Shown one piece after another: positions 31,911 to 60,545 of a stretch of 64,000 nucleotides of DNA (the first letter of the stretch is position 1; each line of letters starts with the position of its first letter). The notes beneath the pieces were generated by a model. The model searched no databases and was not told the origin of the DNA. It saw only the letters and a list, made by a program, of their open reading frames with translations. The position numbers and the translations under genes were made by a program. Origin of the DNA: Clostridiales bacterium (GTDB lineage Bacteria; Bacillota; Dethiobacteria; Dethiobacterales; Dethiobacteraceae); the NCBI GenBank assembly GCA_018335855.1, contig JAGXRM010000055.1:1-64000 (forward strand), given 5' to 3'.

Positions 31911-33622
31911 ATGAAAAATAAGATAACACCAGGTAAGGATAAATGGGAATCAATCTTTCAGAATATATTCGAATCACTGCCTGCGGCTGTTCTGGTGCTG
32001 GACCAAGATTTACATGTAGAAATGGCCAACCAGGCAGCACAGTCGCTTTTTTCTTGTTGCGCAAACCCGGAGTGTAAGCCGGGTGTTCTTTTTCGTTGTG
32101 CTGATCCGGAGTTTGGTTGTGGTTTTGGACCGGATTGTTCAAATTGTGTTTTACTGCAACAACTGAAGGCAGAAATATTGCAGGAAAGGGCTAACGGCAC
32201 ACAGTCGGTTATCAAAGACAGGTATAGCTTTGTTATTTCTTCTGTACGCTCTGCGGACGAACCGGTAAAGTTTGTTTTGACCGTGACGACGCAGGACACG
32301 GACAAATCTGGACAACCAGAGGATTCAATGTACCGGGATATTTTTGAAAACATCAGTGACCTCATTTTTATTCATGACTTTAATGGGAAGATTATTCATC
32401 TAAATCCTGCAGTGAAAGATGTGTTTGGATATTTACCTGAAGAACTAACAGGCAGGCATTTACACGACTTGGTCGCTGTACTGTACCGTGACGAAGTCGA
32501 TGATTATTTGAAGACGTTATGCGAACAAGGCGAAATGACCGGAGTTATGCGCGCAACGGCACGGAATGGACAGGAAAAATTCCTCTCCTATAATGCATCT
32601 TTGATAAATAACGGGAAAATGTGCAGAGGGATTGCCAGAGATGTCACCACTGATTTTATGGCAGCCAAAGTTTTGGAAGAAAATCCTATCCTCTGAGCCT
32701 GATTATCGTCGATGTGGACGGTTTAAAAATTATCAACGATACGCTTGGGCACCAGCGGGGAGATGCTGTCCTGAGCAAAACTGCGGCCATTCTGCAAGCT
32801 CCGTTTCGGTCCGGTGACATTGTCGCCAGGATCGGGGGTGATGAATTTGCCATTGTTCTGCCCCGGGCAGAAGAGGCCATAGTAGAAAATGCCCGTTTGC
32901 GTATACTCCAGGCTCTTCGCAGGGAAAACCGGGAATTAGAAGATTTGCGACTCAGTGTTTCTTTTGGTTATGTAACGGCCAGAAAACCCGGTGCCACAAT
33001 CAGTGAGTTGGTTAAAGCTGCAGACGATGCTATGTATATACAAAAGAGTGCAGAATCCGGAGAAACCAGACAGGGCATTGTGAAATCGCTCCTTGCTACT
33101 CTGGAGGTTCGGGATCATATGACTGTGGAGCACGCAGAACGATTACAGCGACTGGCCGATACGTTTGGGCGGTTGGTGAACCTAAGTGACAGGGAAAAAG
33201 ATGACTTGCTTATGCTCACCCTGCTTCACGATATCGGTAAGATTGGTGTGCCGGATAACGTCTTGTTTAAGCCCGGTCCCTTATCGGCAGAAGAGCGTTG
33301 TCTGATGCAAAAACATTCCGAAATCGGCTACCGGATTGCTGCTTCTACCCCGGAATTAACGACCATTGCCCGGTATGTTCTACTCCACCATGAACGGTGG
33401 GACGGTGACGGGTACCCGCAAAAGCTGACCGGCAAAAAAATACCTCTTGTGTGTAGGATGTTAACGATTCTTGACGCTTATGATGCCATGATTTCAAACC
33501 GTCCTTACCGTCCAGGGATGAGTAAGGATGAAGCTGTACTTGAACTTCAGCGCTGTGCAGGAAGTCAGTTTGACCCTGATTTGGTAGAGTTGTTTATAGA
33601 ACATGTACTGAAAGAAGTATAG
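31911..33622 (+). pseudogene. PAS-PAS-GGDEF-HD-GYP protein broken by an internal deletion and frameshift
   Basis: The 5' part (to TGA 32694) encodes a Cys-rich PAS domain (CCANPECKPG ... CGFGPDCSNCVL) and a second PAS (SMYRDIFENISDLIFIHDFNG). The 3' part, in the +2 frame, resumes inside a GGDEF domain at SYPLSLIIVDVDGLKIIND, continues with RIGGDEFAIVLP, and ends in an HD-GYP phosphodiesterase (LLHDIGKIGVPD, HHERWDGDGYPQKLTG). The first about 40 residues of the GGDEF domain (the LTGLYNR region) are absent at the junction near 32665-32690. The HD-GYP part could still be made from GTG 32714, but no good ribosome site is visible there. Confidence 0.8.
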
Positions 33623-33665
33623 ATATAGTAAAACCGGGCTTATTTAGCCCGGTTTTACTATATCT
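33621..33665. terminator. Long bidirectional terminator
   Basis: AGATATAGTAAAACCGGGC-TTATTTA-GCCCGGTTTTACTATATCT, a 19-base perfect stem between convergent genes. The stop codon of the minus-strand selenoprotein lies in the loop. Confidence 0.9.
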
Positions 33666-33991
33666 TTCAGCGTTTCCATTGTTATATTTCTGTGTGCAGT
33701 ATTCCATACGCATTGGCCGTCACGGATAAGTAAGACCTGCGGCGACTCGTGGCGTACACCTGTTTTACTGGCAACAGCCTGAGAGACGTCTCTTGCTTCC
33801 TGAACAACAACACGGCAAACATCGACGGCTTGCGCTTCTTTGCATTCTAAAAACCTGTCCACCTCCCGGTGGGCGCGTCCGCTTACCGGTCACGTGGCAC
33901 TGTGTTTAAAAATAAGCACGGGTTTTTTATCAGAACCGGCCAAGGAGTGCTCCAGGTCACTTACATTACTAATCTGAATAATATTAGACAT
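33644..33991 (-). CDS. YtxJ-like thioredoxin-fold selenoprotein (TGA at 33890-33892 read as Sec)
   Basis: Reading through one in-frame TGA gives 115 residues. The segment LIFKHSATUPVSGRAHREVD aligns with the KHSxxCP active site of YtxJ/DUF2847 bacillithiol-related redox proteins, with Sec34 exactly at the redox Cys. The frame stays coding to TAA 33644. GAGGTGG precedes ATG 33991. A hairpin with a G-rich loop sits 18-31 bases 3' of the TGA, the geometry of a bacterial SECIS. A conventional annotation would show only a 72-codon fragment. Proposed role: cytosolic thiol/selenol redox; partner unknown. Confidence 0.85.
33859..33872 (-). promoter_or_regulatory. Candidate SECIS hairpin in the YtxJ-like gene
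   Basis: On the minus strand CCACC-GGGA-GGTGG; the apical loop begins 23 bases after the TGA and starts with G. Confidence 0.65.
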
Positions 33992-34084
33992 GTCTAACCA
34001 CCTCGCTGTATTATAATAGTTACTATTCCACATTTATCCGAAAAAATCCTTCTTAAAGCGAAGGCAACAGATGCCATTCATGGA

Positions 34085-35357
34085 CTAATCCGGCAGCTTT
34101 TTTCCGGGGTTTAAAATTCCATGGGGGTCGAAGGCGTTTTTAAGACGTTTCATTAAACTAATTTCTGATTCACTCAATACATTCGGGAGAAACTGCTTAC
34201 GTTTTAAGCCGATACCATGTTCTCCGCTAATGGAACCGTCAAGGGAAGCAGCCATCTGGTATGCATCTTTTAGCATCTCAGGCAAATTATTTTCCCACTG
34301 GAGCACATCGTGTGCTGCACGTTTCAGGAAACGGGCATGAATATTTCCGTCTCCCGCATGACCGTAGCTTACCACATCACAGTAATATTTTTCGGCCAGA
34401 GCATGCAAAAACATGACGAATTCGGATACGGCACTGACAGGAACTACGATATCTTCGCCGTTTTGTATGGGGTATAGGGTTTTTACTGCCTCGGCGACTG
34501 CTTCACGTATGCGCCAGAGTTTGTGGCGTGCCTGAGCATCATTGGCACTGTAAATCTCAAGAACCCCGTATGTCTCTGCAAGCCCGCCGAGCGTTTCACA
34601 GGCCACAAACAGTTCATCTTCGCTGCTGCCATCCAGTTGTACCAATAGAAGGGCACCGGCTTGGTGCGGGAGGGTCTCACCCAAAAAACGGCATGATATT
34701 TCCACTGCAAACCGTAGTAATAACGGCTAATGTTCCTTCTGAACCTACCAGCAGAGAAACAAGGTTATACCCGGTTACATCTTTAACACGCTTACCGCCG
34801 ATTTGCATAATTTCACCGGTGGGCAGGACTACTTCCAGGCCCAAAACATAACGGCCTGTCACACCGTATTTGACGGCATGACCGCCTCCGGCATTGGTTG
34901 CCACATTTCCGCCCACGGAGCAGGATTCTTTACTCATGGGGTAACCAGGATAAAAAAGATTATCACGGGCTAACCGCTCATTAATGGTTTTGGTGATGAC
35001 CCCCGGCTCCACGGTAATTGTCAGATTAGCCAAATCATAGTCCAGGATCCTGTCCATGCGCTCCAGTGACAGGACGATTCCGCCGTAAACAGGCACAGCC
35101 CCTCCAGCCAGGCCTGTGCCCGCACCCCGGGGAGTAACAGGAAGGTGGTGTACATGAGCAATTTTCATGACAGCTGCCACTTCTTCCGCAGACGCCGGCT
35201 TGACTACCACATCAGGGAATGCCCGATACTTTTTGCCGGGGACTTCATCGTGGGAATAGGGAAAAAGTTGCTCTTTATCTGTGATGATGTTAATAGTGCC
35301 GACAATATCCTCAAGATCTGAGAGGATAGACAGGGTGACAGTATTAAATGTGTTCAT
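34085..35357 (-). pseudogene. Glycolate oxidase-type FAD-linked oxidase (glcD-like), internally deleted
   Basis: The 5' part (35357 down to about 34677) has the FAD-binding PCMH domain with TPRGAGTGLAGGAVP and GGNVATNAGGGHAVKYG, ending at GSEGTLAVITTV. The 3' part, in another frame from about 34705, resumes at ETLPHQAGALLLVQLDG and ends SGEHGIGLKRKQFLP ... FDPHGILNPGKKLPD. About 50-60 residues between the two are missing compared with GlcD (about 460 aa) and the frame changes at the junction near 34690-34710, so the enzyme should be inactive. ATG 35357 follows GGAGG. The intact ancestor would oxidise a 2-hydroxyacid such as glycolate or lactate. Confidence 0.8.
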
Positions 35358-35499
35358 GTTTGCCTCCATATAAATCATAAAGTAACCTTCGTTTCTTTTT
35401 AGGAATACCCTGCAGAAAGGAAAAATTTTTAAATGACTAGGCAGGAAAACAATTGGTCTCTGTCATAACTGTTTAAAAGCAATCAATAGGAGGCAGCTT

Positions 35500-51669: not shown

Positions 51670-52185
51670 ATGATGTTGCGAGACGCTTATGAGCTCATGA
51701 AATTACTCCCAATTGGGACTGAGGCTGTGAAATTCGAACTCAAGGATATTTTTGGAAATATAGTTACACTAGACGATTTTTTGGGTAAGTATTGGGTAGT
51801 GCTGGAGTTTGGCTCCTTCACGTGACCTCCCTTCCGGAGCCAGATGGCTCCCATGGAGAGCGTAGCCGCTGAATTAAAATCAAAGCCCGTACGATTTTTA
51901 ATCATTTACACTCGTGAAGCCCACCCCGGCCAATATAATTTTAAGCATATTCCTCAACACTGCAACATAGAAGACAAGAGCAAGATGGCAGCAATGCTTC
52001 AACAAGAAACTGGCTTGGAAAACAGAACCATATTGATTGATGATATTAATGATTCTGTAACGAGAACGTATCGGGGATTTCCCAACAAGGCGTATATCAT
52101 TGGCCTTAACGGCAAAATAGTTTACGCCGATCGCTGGGCTTCTGCCGATAGAATCAGTAAAGAGGTACACAGTCTCTTGAAATAA
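51670..52185 (+). CDS. Iodothyronine deiodinase-like selenoprotein (TGA 51823-51825 read as Sec)
   Basis: Read-through gives 171 residues. VVLEFGSFTUPPFRSQM places Sec52 exactly where vertebrate deiodinases have NFGSCTUPPF. Downstream, FLIIYTREAHPGQYNFK matches the deiodinase VIYIEEAH region, and the C-terminal half is a thioredoxin-like fold with RTILIDDINDSVTRTYRGFP and KAYIIGLNGKIVYADRW. AAAGGGAGG precedes the paired ATG codons at 51670 and 51673. A hairpin of SECIS form follows the TGA. Thyroid hormone is not the substrate; a peroxidase or reductive dehalogenation role is open. It lies downstream of decayed genes and carries its own ribosome site. Confidence 0.88.
51836..51851 (+). promoter_or_regulatory. 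Candidate SECIS hairpin in the deiodinase-like gene
   Basis: GGAGCC-AGAT-GGCTCC, a perfect 6-base stem. The loop starts 17 bases after the TGA and has G as its second base. Confidence 0.75.
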
Positions 52186-54074: not shown

Positions 54075-54171
54075 CATAATCTATATTTTAACAGGGCCTC
54101 TTTTCTGTTTGTTATCTCTTGTTTTACTTTTTCCAATCCAAAGCATTTCGAGGAACATTTTCAGTTGACTA

Positions 54172-54915
54172 TCATAATTGAACAGGTAGTTTTTTAATGC
54201 TACCCGGTGATTCGATATCCTGCAATGCCTGTAAAGCCATGGTAACTACACGAGTTTGTGTTTCCACGTCAAAAGCCTTACCGGTAACTCTTCCCAGAGG
54301 AAAATTAACATGTACTGCTCTGGGAACCCGGATTTTTGCGGTTAATCCCTGCATTAATGTTATACTCACAGTAATGAGACCGGCTGTTTCCAGTTCCCGC
54401 TGAATCAATCCCACCGATTGATGGCACAGCGGTCAGCCTGGAGTAAGTAAAACTATATCAGTTTCTTGTTTTAATAGTTCCCGGGCTACTTTGCCTGCAT
54501 TGGCAATCAGTGTTTCATGCAGGGCATTAAGGATAAAGCCCATAAACCCATAATTTGTTGCAGAGATTCCTTTAATAAAGCCGGACTGCACCAGTTCCTC
54601 AAGTCTTGTTATGGGGAAGACACAATTAATATCTTTATCTGCGTCAGTATGGTCATAATGAGTGTGAGTGATTAGATAGTCCTCTAGTGGCGCTTTAGCC
54701 GAAACTTCCCGAAAGGAAGCATCCCCCTTTTTTGCCTTGACATCAAAGGGTGCCTGATTCTTTAAATGCACGCCAGCGGTAGTAACAAGGGCGACGCGAC
54801 ATTCGTTTAGAGTTTTTTGCAGGGGCTGCCACGGTACTTCTTTGCCCGTGTTATCAACTATAAATGGTTTAACAAGCTTCTGTGTCAAATTTTGTTTTAA
54901 CATATATTCTCTCAT
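54172..54915 (-). CDS. Selenoprotein B family reductase-like protein (PrdB-like; TGA 54433-54435 read as Sec)
   Basis: Read-through yields 247 residues (243 if the second ATG, 54903, is used). RVALVTTAGVHLKNQAPFD, ITHTHYDHTDADKDINCVFP and GFMGFILNALHETL precede VLLTPGUPLCHQSVGLIQRE, matching the glycine/betaine/D-proline reductase selenoprotein B family (PrdB/GrdB), with Sec161 at its known place. A 7-base-stem SECIS-like hairpin follows the TGA. No proline reductase PrdA or other Prd/Grd subunits are nearby, so the substrate is probably different. Confidence 0.85.
54404..54422 (-). promoter_or_regulatory. Candidate SECIS hairpin in the PrdB-like gene
   Basis: On the minus strand ATCAATC-GGTGG-GATTGAT; perfect stem, loop starting 18 bases after the TGA with G first. 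Confidence 0.75.
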
Positions 54916-56232: not shown

Positions 56233-56670
56233 TTAATTATCCAGAATTTGTGCTATTCTGCTCTCTATATTGCCTTTTGTCAAAACCCCTGTATCGTTTG
56301 CAACAATTTCACCATTGCTGTCAATATAGAAAAATGCCGGGATGTATCTAACCATGAATTCATTCGCCATGCGGTTGCCTTCCTGATCGCCAACATCGAC
56401 AATAACAAAAACAACTTGATCTTCATACTTCTCTTTAAGAGCCATAACCACGGGCTCCATTAGTTTGCATGTAATTCACCAATCAGCATAAAATTCTACA
56501 AATACAGGTTTTCCTTCGGCCAGTGCCTGTTCATAAAGGGCAATTGGATCAGGTGTAGCGGAAAACTGACTCTCAGTCCGATTCAAAAAAGGAATATATG
56601 GTTTTGCCATTACACCAACAACCAGTAAGCCTACAAATACCAGGATTAACCGTTTTACACTAGTCTTCAA
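56233..56670 (-). CDS. Membrane-anchored thioredoxin-like selenoprotein (WUxxC; TGA 56476-56478 read as Sec)
   Basis: Read-through gives 145 residues. The N-terminal anchor (KRLILVFVGLLVVGVMA) is followed by VFVEFYADWUITCKLMEPVV, the thioredoxin active site with Sec65 in place of the first Cys, and the fold continues through RYIPAFFYIDSNGEIV, containing the cis-Pro. TTG 56670 follows AGAGGAGAA. The extracytoplasmic domain would be reduced by the neighbouring CcdA-like protein. A BlaI-type palindrome lies just upstream, so expression is probably regulated with blaI-blaR1. Confidence 0.88.
56439..56457 (-). promoter_or_regulatory. Candidate SECIS hairpin in the thioredoxin-like gene
   Basis: On the minus strand GAGCC-CGTGGTTAT-GGCTC; loop of 9 bases beginning 24 bases after the TGA, with G second. 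Confidence 0.6.
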
Positions 56671-59303: not shown

Positions 59304-60545
59304 ATGGTCAGCCTCGAAAAGCTCCATCCTGAGGAGCGAAACTTCCTCGAAAACGTACCCTGTCCGACATTTGCAGCACAGCCTTGGGTCAGGGGCAAAA
59401 AACTGAAGGAAAGGCGAGTCGCAATAATTTCCACGGCCGGTCTGCATCAGCCCGAAGACCGCCCCTTTACCTCTGTGGAAGGTGATTACTACCGTATAAT
59501 TCCCGGGGACATTCAATCAAATAACCTGGTAATGAGCCATGTCTCGGTCAATTTTGACAGGACAGGCTTTTACCGGGACTTAAATGTGGTCTTTCCCATT
59601 GACCGCCTGAGGGAACTTGCAGAAAGCGGCGATATCGGCAGCATAGCAAGCTTTCATTATTCTTTCATGGGCGCTGATGATCCTATGAGATGGGAGCAGA
59701 CGGCACGCCATCTTGCAGGCCTGTTAAAAAAAGACAATATTGACGCCGTGTTGCTGGTGCCGGTCTGACCGCTTTGTACGCGCGCCGTTGGCGTGCTGGC
59801 ACACTTTCTTGAGGAGGAAGGGCTTGCTACCACGCAAATCAGCCTGATTCGCCTGCATACGGATGTTATCAAGCCGCCAAGAGCCCTTTGGGTGCCTTTT
59901 GAACTTGGTCGCCCGTTAGGAGAGCCAAATAACCCAGCTTTTCAGAAGCGTGTTCTGATGTCCGCCCTCGGTCTGCTTGAAGCGCCACGGGGCCCGCTGC
60001 TGATCGATTTCCCGGATGATACCCCGTTATTAGGGGGGGCGCCGGTTATGCTTGCCTGCCCATATGTTCCGCCGGCAGAGGATGCCGAGACCACGCAGGC
60101 CGACCGGCTTTGCAAGACCTTTAAAACAGAAATGACATCGATGAGACCCTGGTATGATCAGGCCTTAAAAAAGCGAGGGCGTACCATAGTCGGAATTAGC
60201 AAACTCACACCCGAGGCTATCGCAGATTTTTTGTGTTCTTTCCTTGAAGGCAGCACTCCTACTCAGAACCCGCGCCAGGATGTATCTCTTGCATACCAAC
60301 TCGGGTATTCAGTAGAAGACCTGAAGGCCTACTACTATGAGGCTATCACGGCGCAACCTGGTGCTGATGTTCTGTCTAGCGAAGATCTCGATAAATGGTT
60401 TTGGGAAAATACAGTTGCCGGAAAATTCTTGCGGGAATTAAGAGGAATTTGTCTTAAAAACGAAGATAAATTGTTGCAACAGACCGCCGCAAGGCGGATA
60501 ATACCTCAAAAAACCCTGTTAACAAATACTGGTGGTAAAGGATAG
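59304..60545 (+). CDS. Selenoprotein B family reductase-like protein (TGA 59766-59768 read as Sec)
   Basis: Read-through yields 413 residues. RRVAIISTAGLHQPEDRPF, VMSHVSVNFDRTGFYRDLNV and the Phe-rich HYSFMGADDP precede VLLVPVUPLCTRAVGVLAHF, the selenoprotein B family active site with Sec155. After about residue 230 comes a distinct C-terminal extension of about 180 residues (IVGISKLTPEAIADFLCSFL, YYYEAITAQPGADVLSSEDL) not present in the shorter paralogue in this window. GGAGG precedes ATG 59304. SECIS-like hairpin after the TGA. Substrate unknown. Confidence 0.85.
59780..59796 (+). promoter_or_regulatory. Candidate SECIS hairpin in the long selenoprotein B-like gene
   Basis: GCGCGCC-GTT-GGCGTGC with one G-U pair; loop begins 19 bases after the TGA with G first. 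Confidence 0.7.

Follow-up and report, generated by a model that had tools for sequence, protein, structure and literature searches.

The locus at positions 33644 to 33991 of the 64,000-nt stretch of DNA analyzed here (the window) raises the question of what a 72-aa open reading frame on its minus strand represents. A table-11 ORF list yields only this piece unless TGA is recoded, and the piece could either stand for a gene of its own or form the end of a longer protein in which an in-frame TGA specifies selenocysteine (Sec). Based on family models, comparison with relatives and the genes of the host genome, we place a probability of about 0.88 on the gene encoding a Sec-containing version of YtxJ/BrxC, a monothiol bacilliredoxin, with Sec inserted at the UGA and a mode of action like that of BrxC. 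The family assignment and the Sec site are well supported; Sec insertion, the substrates and the catalytic cycle are what we infer from the sequence.

Reading frame and family assignment

Translated with TGA as Sec, the minus-strand frame from 33991 to 33644 comprises 115 codons with an ATG start and a single in-frame TGA. A preliminary description of this DNA had extended the 72-codon fragment upstream through the TGA at 33890-33892 to a good start, and the ATG at 33991, preceded by GAGGTGG, bears this out. The elements of the locus are listed below with the evidence for each.

33644-33991, minus strand: ytxJ/brxC coding sequence with an in-frame UGA, 115 aa including the stop (translation; TIGR04019, 114.2 bits; PF11009, 109.2 bits)
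33890-33892, minus strand: predicted Sec UGA codon, residue U34, replacing the invariant Cys of the family (translation; alignment column)
33998-34004, minus strand: ribosome binding site GAGGTGG, 6 nt upstream of the ATG (sequence)
33859-33872, minus strand: SECIS-like hairpin CCACC-GGGA-GGTGG, loop 22 nt past the UGA (folding; frozen codons)
33644-33862, minus strand: 72-aa fragment of the standard ORF call, the GTG start of which is not the real start (table-11 ORF list)
33622-33664, no strand assigned: perfect 19-bp inverted repeat with a 5-nt loop, between two convergent genes (read from the sequence)

The ytxJ stop lies inside the inverted repeat, which is probably a bidirectional terminator common to ytxJ and the convergent gene at 32714-33622.

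The read-through protein scored above the cut-offs of both family models, with 114.2 bits against TIGR04019 (YtxJ, cut-off 77.25) and 109.2 bits against PF11009 (BrxC, cut-off 24.2). An alignment of 31 rows (A1), from which the near-copies L021, L035 and L038 were left out, was used to examine the active site. All 31 members matched TIGR04019, and column 34 was Cys or Sec in every row, within the site motif K29 H30 S31 .. C/U34 P35. S37. The sequence KHSATUPVSG, earlier proposed to occupy the KHSxxCP site of YtxJ, is indeed carried by the 115-aa read-through product, and its TGA codon aligns with the invariant Cys of the family. These model scores, the position of the TGA and its presence in three other genera (see below) indicate that the frame is more than chance.

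The BrxC/YtxJ proteins of Bacillus subtilis and its relatives (PF11009, formerly DUF2847) resemble the window protein in length, in thioredoxin fold and in the motif KHSxTxP[IV]S, and share with it the invariant residues K29, H30, S31, P35, S37, R67, S70, H81, P84, Q85, W96 and H100. They differ in the catalytic Cys of the TCPIS-type motif, which is absent from the window protein and replaced by a UGA-coded Sec. Since this Cys is replaced and the invariant residues that flank it in the motif are retained, the protein was filed as a Sec variant rather than as a plain YtxJ/BrxC member. Two further cysteines, C59 and C94, are extra relative to BrxC/YtxJ; they are present in all eight rows from the taxonomic family of the source genome (f1), and most rows of A1 outside that family are without Cys in these columns.

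An AlphaFold2 model of the window protein (pLDDT 96.6, pTM 0.90) has a helix at residues 35 to 48 directly after U34. The model and its match to 3iv4 agree with a thioredoxin fold in which the active site is located where the second helix starts. The structure 3iv4 was both the top PDB structure match (Z 18.7, rmsd 1.6 over 108 residues, 34% identity) and the sole PDB match by sequence. BrxA with bacillithiol bound (7rzb, Z 14.6) was also among the structure matches, and a common fold by itself shows no function.

Bacillithiol genes and predicted function

The bshABC check suggested with the preliminary description gave a clear result: bshC, bshB1 and bshA are consecutive in the window's genome and all score over their cut-offs, from which the host is predicted to make bacillithiol. 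In the taxonomic family, bshA was above cut-off in 15 of 19 genomes, including all eight with ytxJ. Since ytxJ is found in 8/19 of these genomes and absent from 11/19, it is not strictly tied to the bsh genes in the family.

BrxA/BrxB and Bdr are described as the usual partners in PMC10950700. A profile search for BrxA/BrxB (TIGR04191) found none in the 19 family genomes, and no match to Bdr/YpdA (TIGR04018) was above cut-off in any of them (best 74 bits against 339.9). In this respect the window's genome is unlike those of the known BrxC/YtxJ proteins. Because none of these models scored above cut-off in the family, the Sec-containing YtxJ would be the sole recognized bacilliredoxin of its cell. 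All eight family genomes with ytxJ hold a single copy, so the Sec form is also the sole ytxJ found in its cell.

In the proposed mechanism, U34 would occupy the N-terminal end of the active-site helix in the thioredoxin fold, in the place of BrxC's catalytic Cys. By analogy with BrxC, its selenolate would attack protein-bacillithiol mixed disulfides, releasing the free protein thiol and leaving a selenenylsulfide (Brx-Se-S-B); the reduction of such mixed disulfides is the activity that the analogy predicts for the window protein. As BrxA/BrxB and Bdr were not recognized, Brx-Se-S-B would be reduced by bacillithiol alone or by a thioredoxin-reductase-like enzyme.

The strongest competing explanation accepts a selenoprotein of the same fold and gives it another main job, either as a bacillithiol-dependent peroxidase or as a thioredoxin-type disulfide reductase, which we consider possible though clearly the lesser prospect. 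Peroxide chemistry is favored by Sec, and the usual partners were not recognized. A precedent is AbxC of Deinococcus, an atypical BrxC with bacillithiol-dependent peroxidase activity that, according to PMC8301015, has a BrxC-like domain, as does the window protein, and is the only Brx in its genome. PMC8301015 also describes a TCHKT site and a C-terminal immunity-like domain for AbxC, whereas the window protein has TUPVS, of the KHSxxCPIS type typical of BrxC, and no extension. The AbxC model also gave only 38 bits with the window protein, against a cut-off of 340. A further and somewhat more doubtful variant is a stand-alone bacillithiol selenoenzyme of this lineage: with no BrxA, BrxB or Bdr recognized, the selenolate would allow a single redoxin to carry the whole cycle by direct use of bacillithiol, perhaps with C59 or C94 as the resolving thiol, and it may also reduce peroxides as a bacillithiol peroxidase.

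Sec/Cys exchange among relatives

The Sec form of YtxJ/BrxC further implies that the UGA is decoded as Sec, and relatives of the gene were used to examine this. A family search for Sec/Cys exchange at codon 34, as advised in the preliminary description, did uncover such an exchange within one bacterial family. Among the eight family ytxJ genes, four have TGA (those of the window's genome, G000, and of G004, G005 and G015, representing four genera) and four have TGC/TGT (G006 to G009, all of one genus). The order search added no genomes to the 19 of the family search, and a class search of 97 genomes returned the same eight ytxJ genomes. In a phylum sample of 398 genomes, 30 had a match, 28 of them above cut-off, and TGA was found solely in G000 and G005; a second phylum sample (28/384) repeats genomes of the first and gives no independent evidence. 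Around G022, a class search covered four genomes, two of them with ytxJ and neither with TGA. A contig scan with the window protein gave five loci, and the site TGA was present in none of the four examined at the site (all except L003).

The ytxJ gene of one Sec genome (G005) and of two Cys genomes (G007 and G008) has the neighbors found in the window, namely a GGDEF gene and, on the opposite side, CBS and typA-like genes, which places the exchange at a syntenic locus. The same neighbors were sought and not found in G004 and G015, and there is no conserved operon. A protein tree was built from 34 proteins out of 37 loci tried, as L003, L022 and L027 fell to the motif filter; it is without L002 (a likely duplicate of L011 with the same protein), the weak matches L039 and L040, and matches lacking a locus. 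The tree separates the four Sec from the four Cys family rows by a well supported branch and does not show which state is ancestral. With Sec and Cys versions in sister genera, one set of them syntenic, these genes offer a natural pair for studying the contribution of selenium to a monothiol redoxin.

Between the Sec genes, pN was 0.15 to 0.25 and pS 0.62 to 0.90, values stated for the part downstream of the UGA since the 12 codons preceding it are too few for firm numbers. With pN well below pS, the downstream part appears to be translated and under selection in the same frame. This bears directly on the explanation that the UGA is a true stop, leaving a nonsense pseudogene or a 33-aa peptide followed by an unrelated 72-aa ORF. 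Standard ORF calling, which yields the 72-aa piece alone, agrees with a true stop, but we hold it to be very unlikely given a TGA kept across four genera, purifying selection beyond it, no further stop in the ytxJ frame and Sec machinery in the genome.

Hairpin downstream of the UGA

If the UGA is read as Sec, an RNA element would be expected to guide insertion, and the hairpin at 33859-33872 is the candidate. Its codons are identical among the Sec genes in four of five cases (GCC, CAC, GTG and GAC, with GAR varying) compared with 2 of 37 elsewhere, counting only codons with the same amino acid in all four genes (Fisher one-sided P = 6.4e-4, a guide rather than an exact value as the four genes are related). 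One of the two invariant codons outside the hairpin is the CCG adjoining the UGA, and synonymous sites outside the hairpin are near saturation among the Sec genes. At the hairpin codons the Cys genes have GCG/GCA and GTA/GTC/GTT or ATT, and no such hairpin is formed.

The bSECIS layout given in PMC13188914 has a loop of 3 to 9 nt, a stem of 4 to 16 bp, a distance of 16 to 37 nt from the UGA, a G within the first two loop positions and a minimum free energy of at most -7.5 kcal/mol. Stem, loop, loop G and spacing (21 to 22 nt) fit this layout in all four Sec genes: three have a 5-bp stem, a GGGA or AGGA loop and a spacing of 22 nt, and the G004 gene has 4 bp, CGGGAA and 21 nt. The energies of the stems alone were -7.6 (window gene), -6.8, -3.2 (G004) and -6.8 kcal/mol, so that one of the four reached the limit. 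Folds of 45 nt from the UGA (-15.0 to -10.6) were not better than those of shuffled sequences (z of -0.77, -0.59, -1.63 and +0.10), and competing folds were present in L001 and L008. Reshuffling of synonymous codons gave mixed results, with 124, 14, 609 and 32 equally good cases out of 2000 per gene. Because the fold z-scores were unsupportive and the reshuffling was mixed across genes, we relied on codon invariance. The suggested SECIS prediction was thus upheld in its layout and synonymous-site conservation and not in its energy, and support for the putative RNA element comes from the conserved codons rather than from energy. An Rfam scan of 33300-34300 returned no SECIS family and eight matches, none of which reached its gathering score; the terminator repeat accounts for most of them, and one weak match (rne5, 11.6 bits) touches the hairpin region.

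Selenocysteine machinery

The genome of the window has selA, selB, selC and selD, with scores of 578 bits for selA and 385 bits for selB, adjoining selD at 386 bits, and its tRNA-Sec has the anticodon TCA. The selD gene (L070:5860-6903, G000:C20) contains its own TGA in the N-terminal sequence TCSGGU, which we take to be the usual Sec position of SelD, and an ATG-start ORF call opens downstream of that UGA. In the Cys genomes, tRNA-Sec and selB were found in G006 to G008 and selB in G009; as selB is still there, the Cys of their ytxJ genes is not due to selB loss. In the window's genome, SelB and Sec-tRNA(UCA) would insert Sec at the ytxJ UGA, with the hairpin that follows the codon as the guide.

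It could also be supposed that the UGA is read through as an amino acid other than Sec, for instance as Cys by an opal-reading tRNA, since a second tRNA in the genome, called tRNA-Cys, exceeds the gathering score of the tRNA-Sec model. We find this improbable: the anticodon of that tRNA is GCA, which is unable to read UGA, the sole tRNA seen with a TCA anticodon is a standard tRNA-Sec, and the conserved hairpin points to SelB-guided insertion. The least credible explanation is a sequencing or assembly error at a codon that is really TGC/TGT, as in the Cys homologs at the syntenic locus of the sister genus, for although the assembly is a draft of 60 contigs, this codon reads TGA in four different genomes, one from each of four genera, and the hairpin codons occur solely in the four TGA genes. 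Evidence for Sec in YtxJ comes from a small set, four related genes of one family, and the Sec-for-Cys interpretation put forward in the preliminary description is supported by the exchange within the family, by the layout and codon conservation of the hairpin and by the bsh gene run.

Comparison with known selenoproteins

The bacillithiol thiol-protection system is, to our knowledge, not known to use selenium. If the interpretation is right, this gene encodes the first selenoprotein of the bacillithiol redox system within the literature searched and adds a new family to selenoprotein catalogs. It also illustrates an annotation failure, the standard ORF call reducing ytxJ to a 72-aa fragment.

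In the accessible parts of the 2026 catalog of 119 selenoprotein families (PMC13188914), there is no mention of PF11009, TIGR04019, YtxJ or bacilliredoxin. Term searches of the available text likewise found no YtxJ/BrxC in the 2022 review of the prokaryotic selenoproteome (PMC9312934) and no YtxJ named in the deep-Sep paper (PMC12013277). A literature search of titles and abstracts of openly available papers gave no report of a Sec YtxJ/bacilliredoxin or of a selenoprotein linked to bacillithiol. The earlier suggestion that a Sec YtxJ would be new if not already cataloged is thus in line with the 2022 and 2026 reviews as far as their available text goes, and as far as searched we regard the window gene as a novel Sec form in a family so far known with Cys. 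The closest parallels are the Sec glutaredoxin and thioredoxin families of the 2026 catalog (PMC13188914, Table 1 as available), where Sec likewise replaces Cys in a thioredoxin-fold redoxin; these carry a UxxC motif and fall into different Pfam families, and PF11009/TIGR04019 is not in that table.

Additional observations in the window and its genome

The tRNA-Cys(GCA) mentioned above is 94 nt long (L071:1610-1703; G000:C32:16609-16698) and scored 55 bits with the tRNA-Sec model, for which the gathering score is 47. Similar-scoring second matches were found in G005 and G017, and the top match of G009 scores alike. Cys tRNAs that resemble tRNA-Sec are known, and this one looks like such a mimic.

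Just upstream of ytxJ, a glcD-like gene (34085-35378, minus strand) is split into two frames and lacks about 143 nt relative to the open copy in G005, reflecting either a deletion or an assembly error.

Four further Sec-type frames were noted within the window. A deiodinase-like frame (51670-52185, plus strand) has SFTUPPF with the TGA at residue 52 (NF038285, 87 bits, under the cut-off of 250), and a thioredoxin-like protein (56233-56670, minus strand) has WUITC in place of WCxxC (TIGR01068, 63 bits, under the cut-off of 96.8). The other two are PrdB-like, with the TGA at ...LLTPGUPLC (54169-54915, minus strand) and at ...LLVPVUPLC (59304-60545, plus strand); they gave 178 and 111 bits, respectively, with TIGR04483, under its cut-off of 300, and both are likely to be further selenoproteins.
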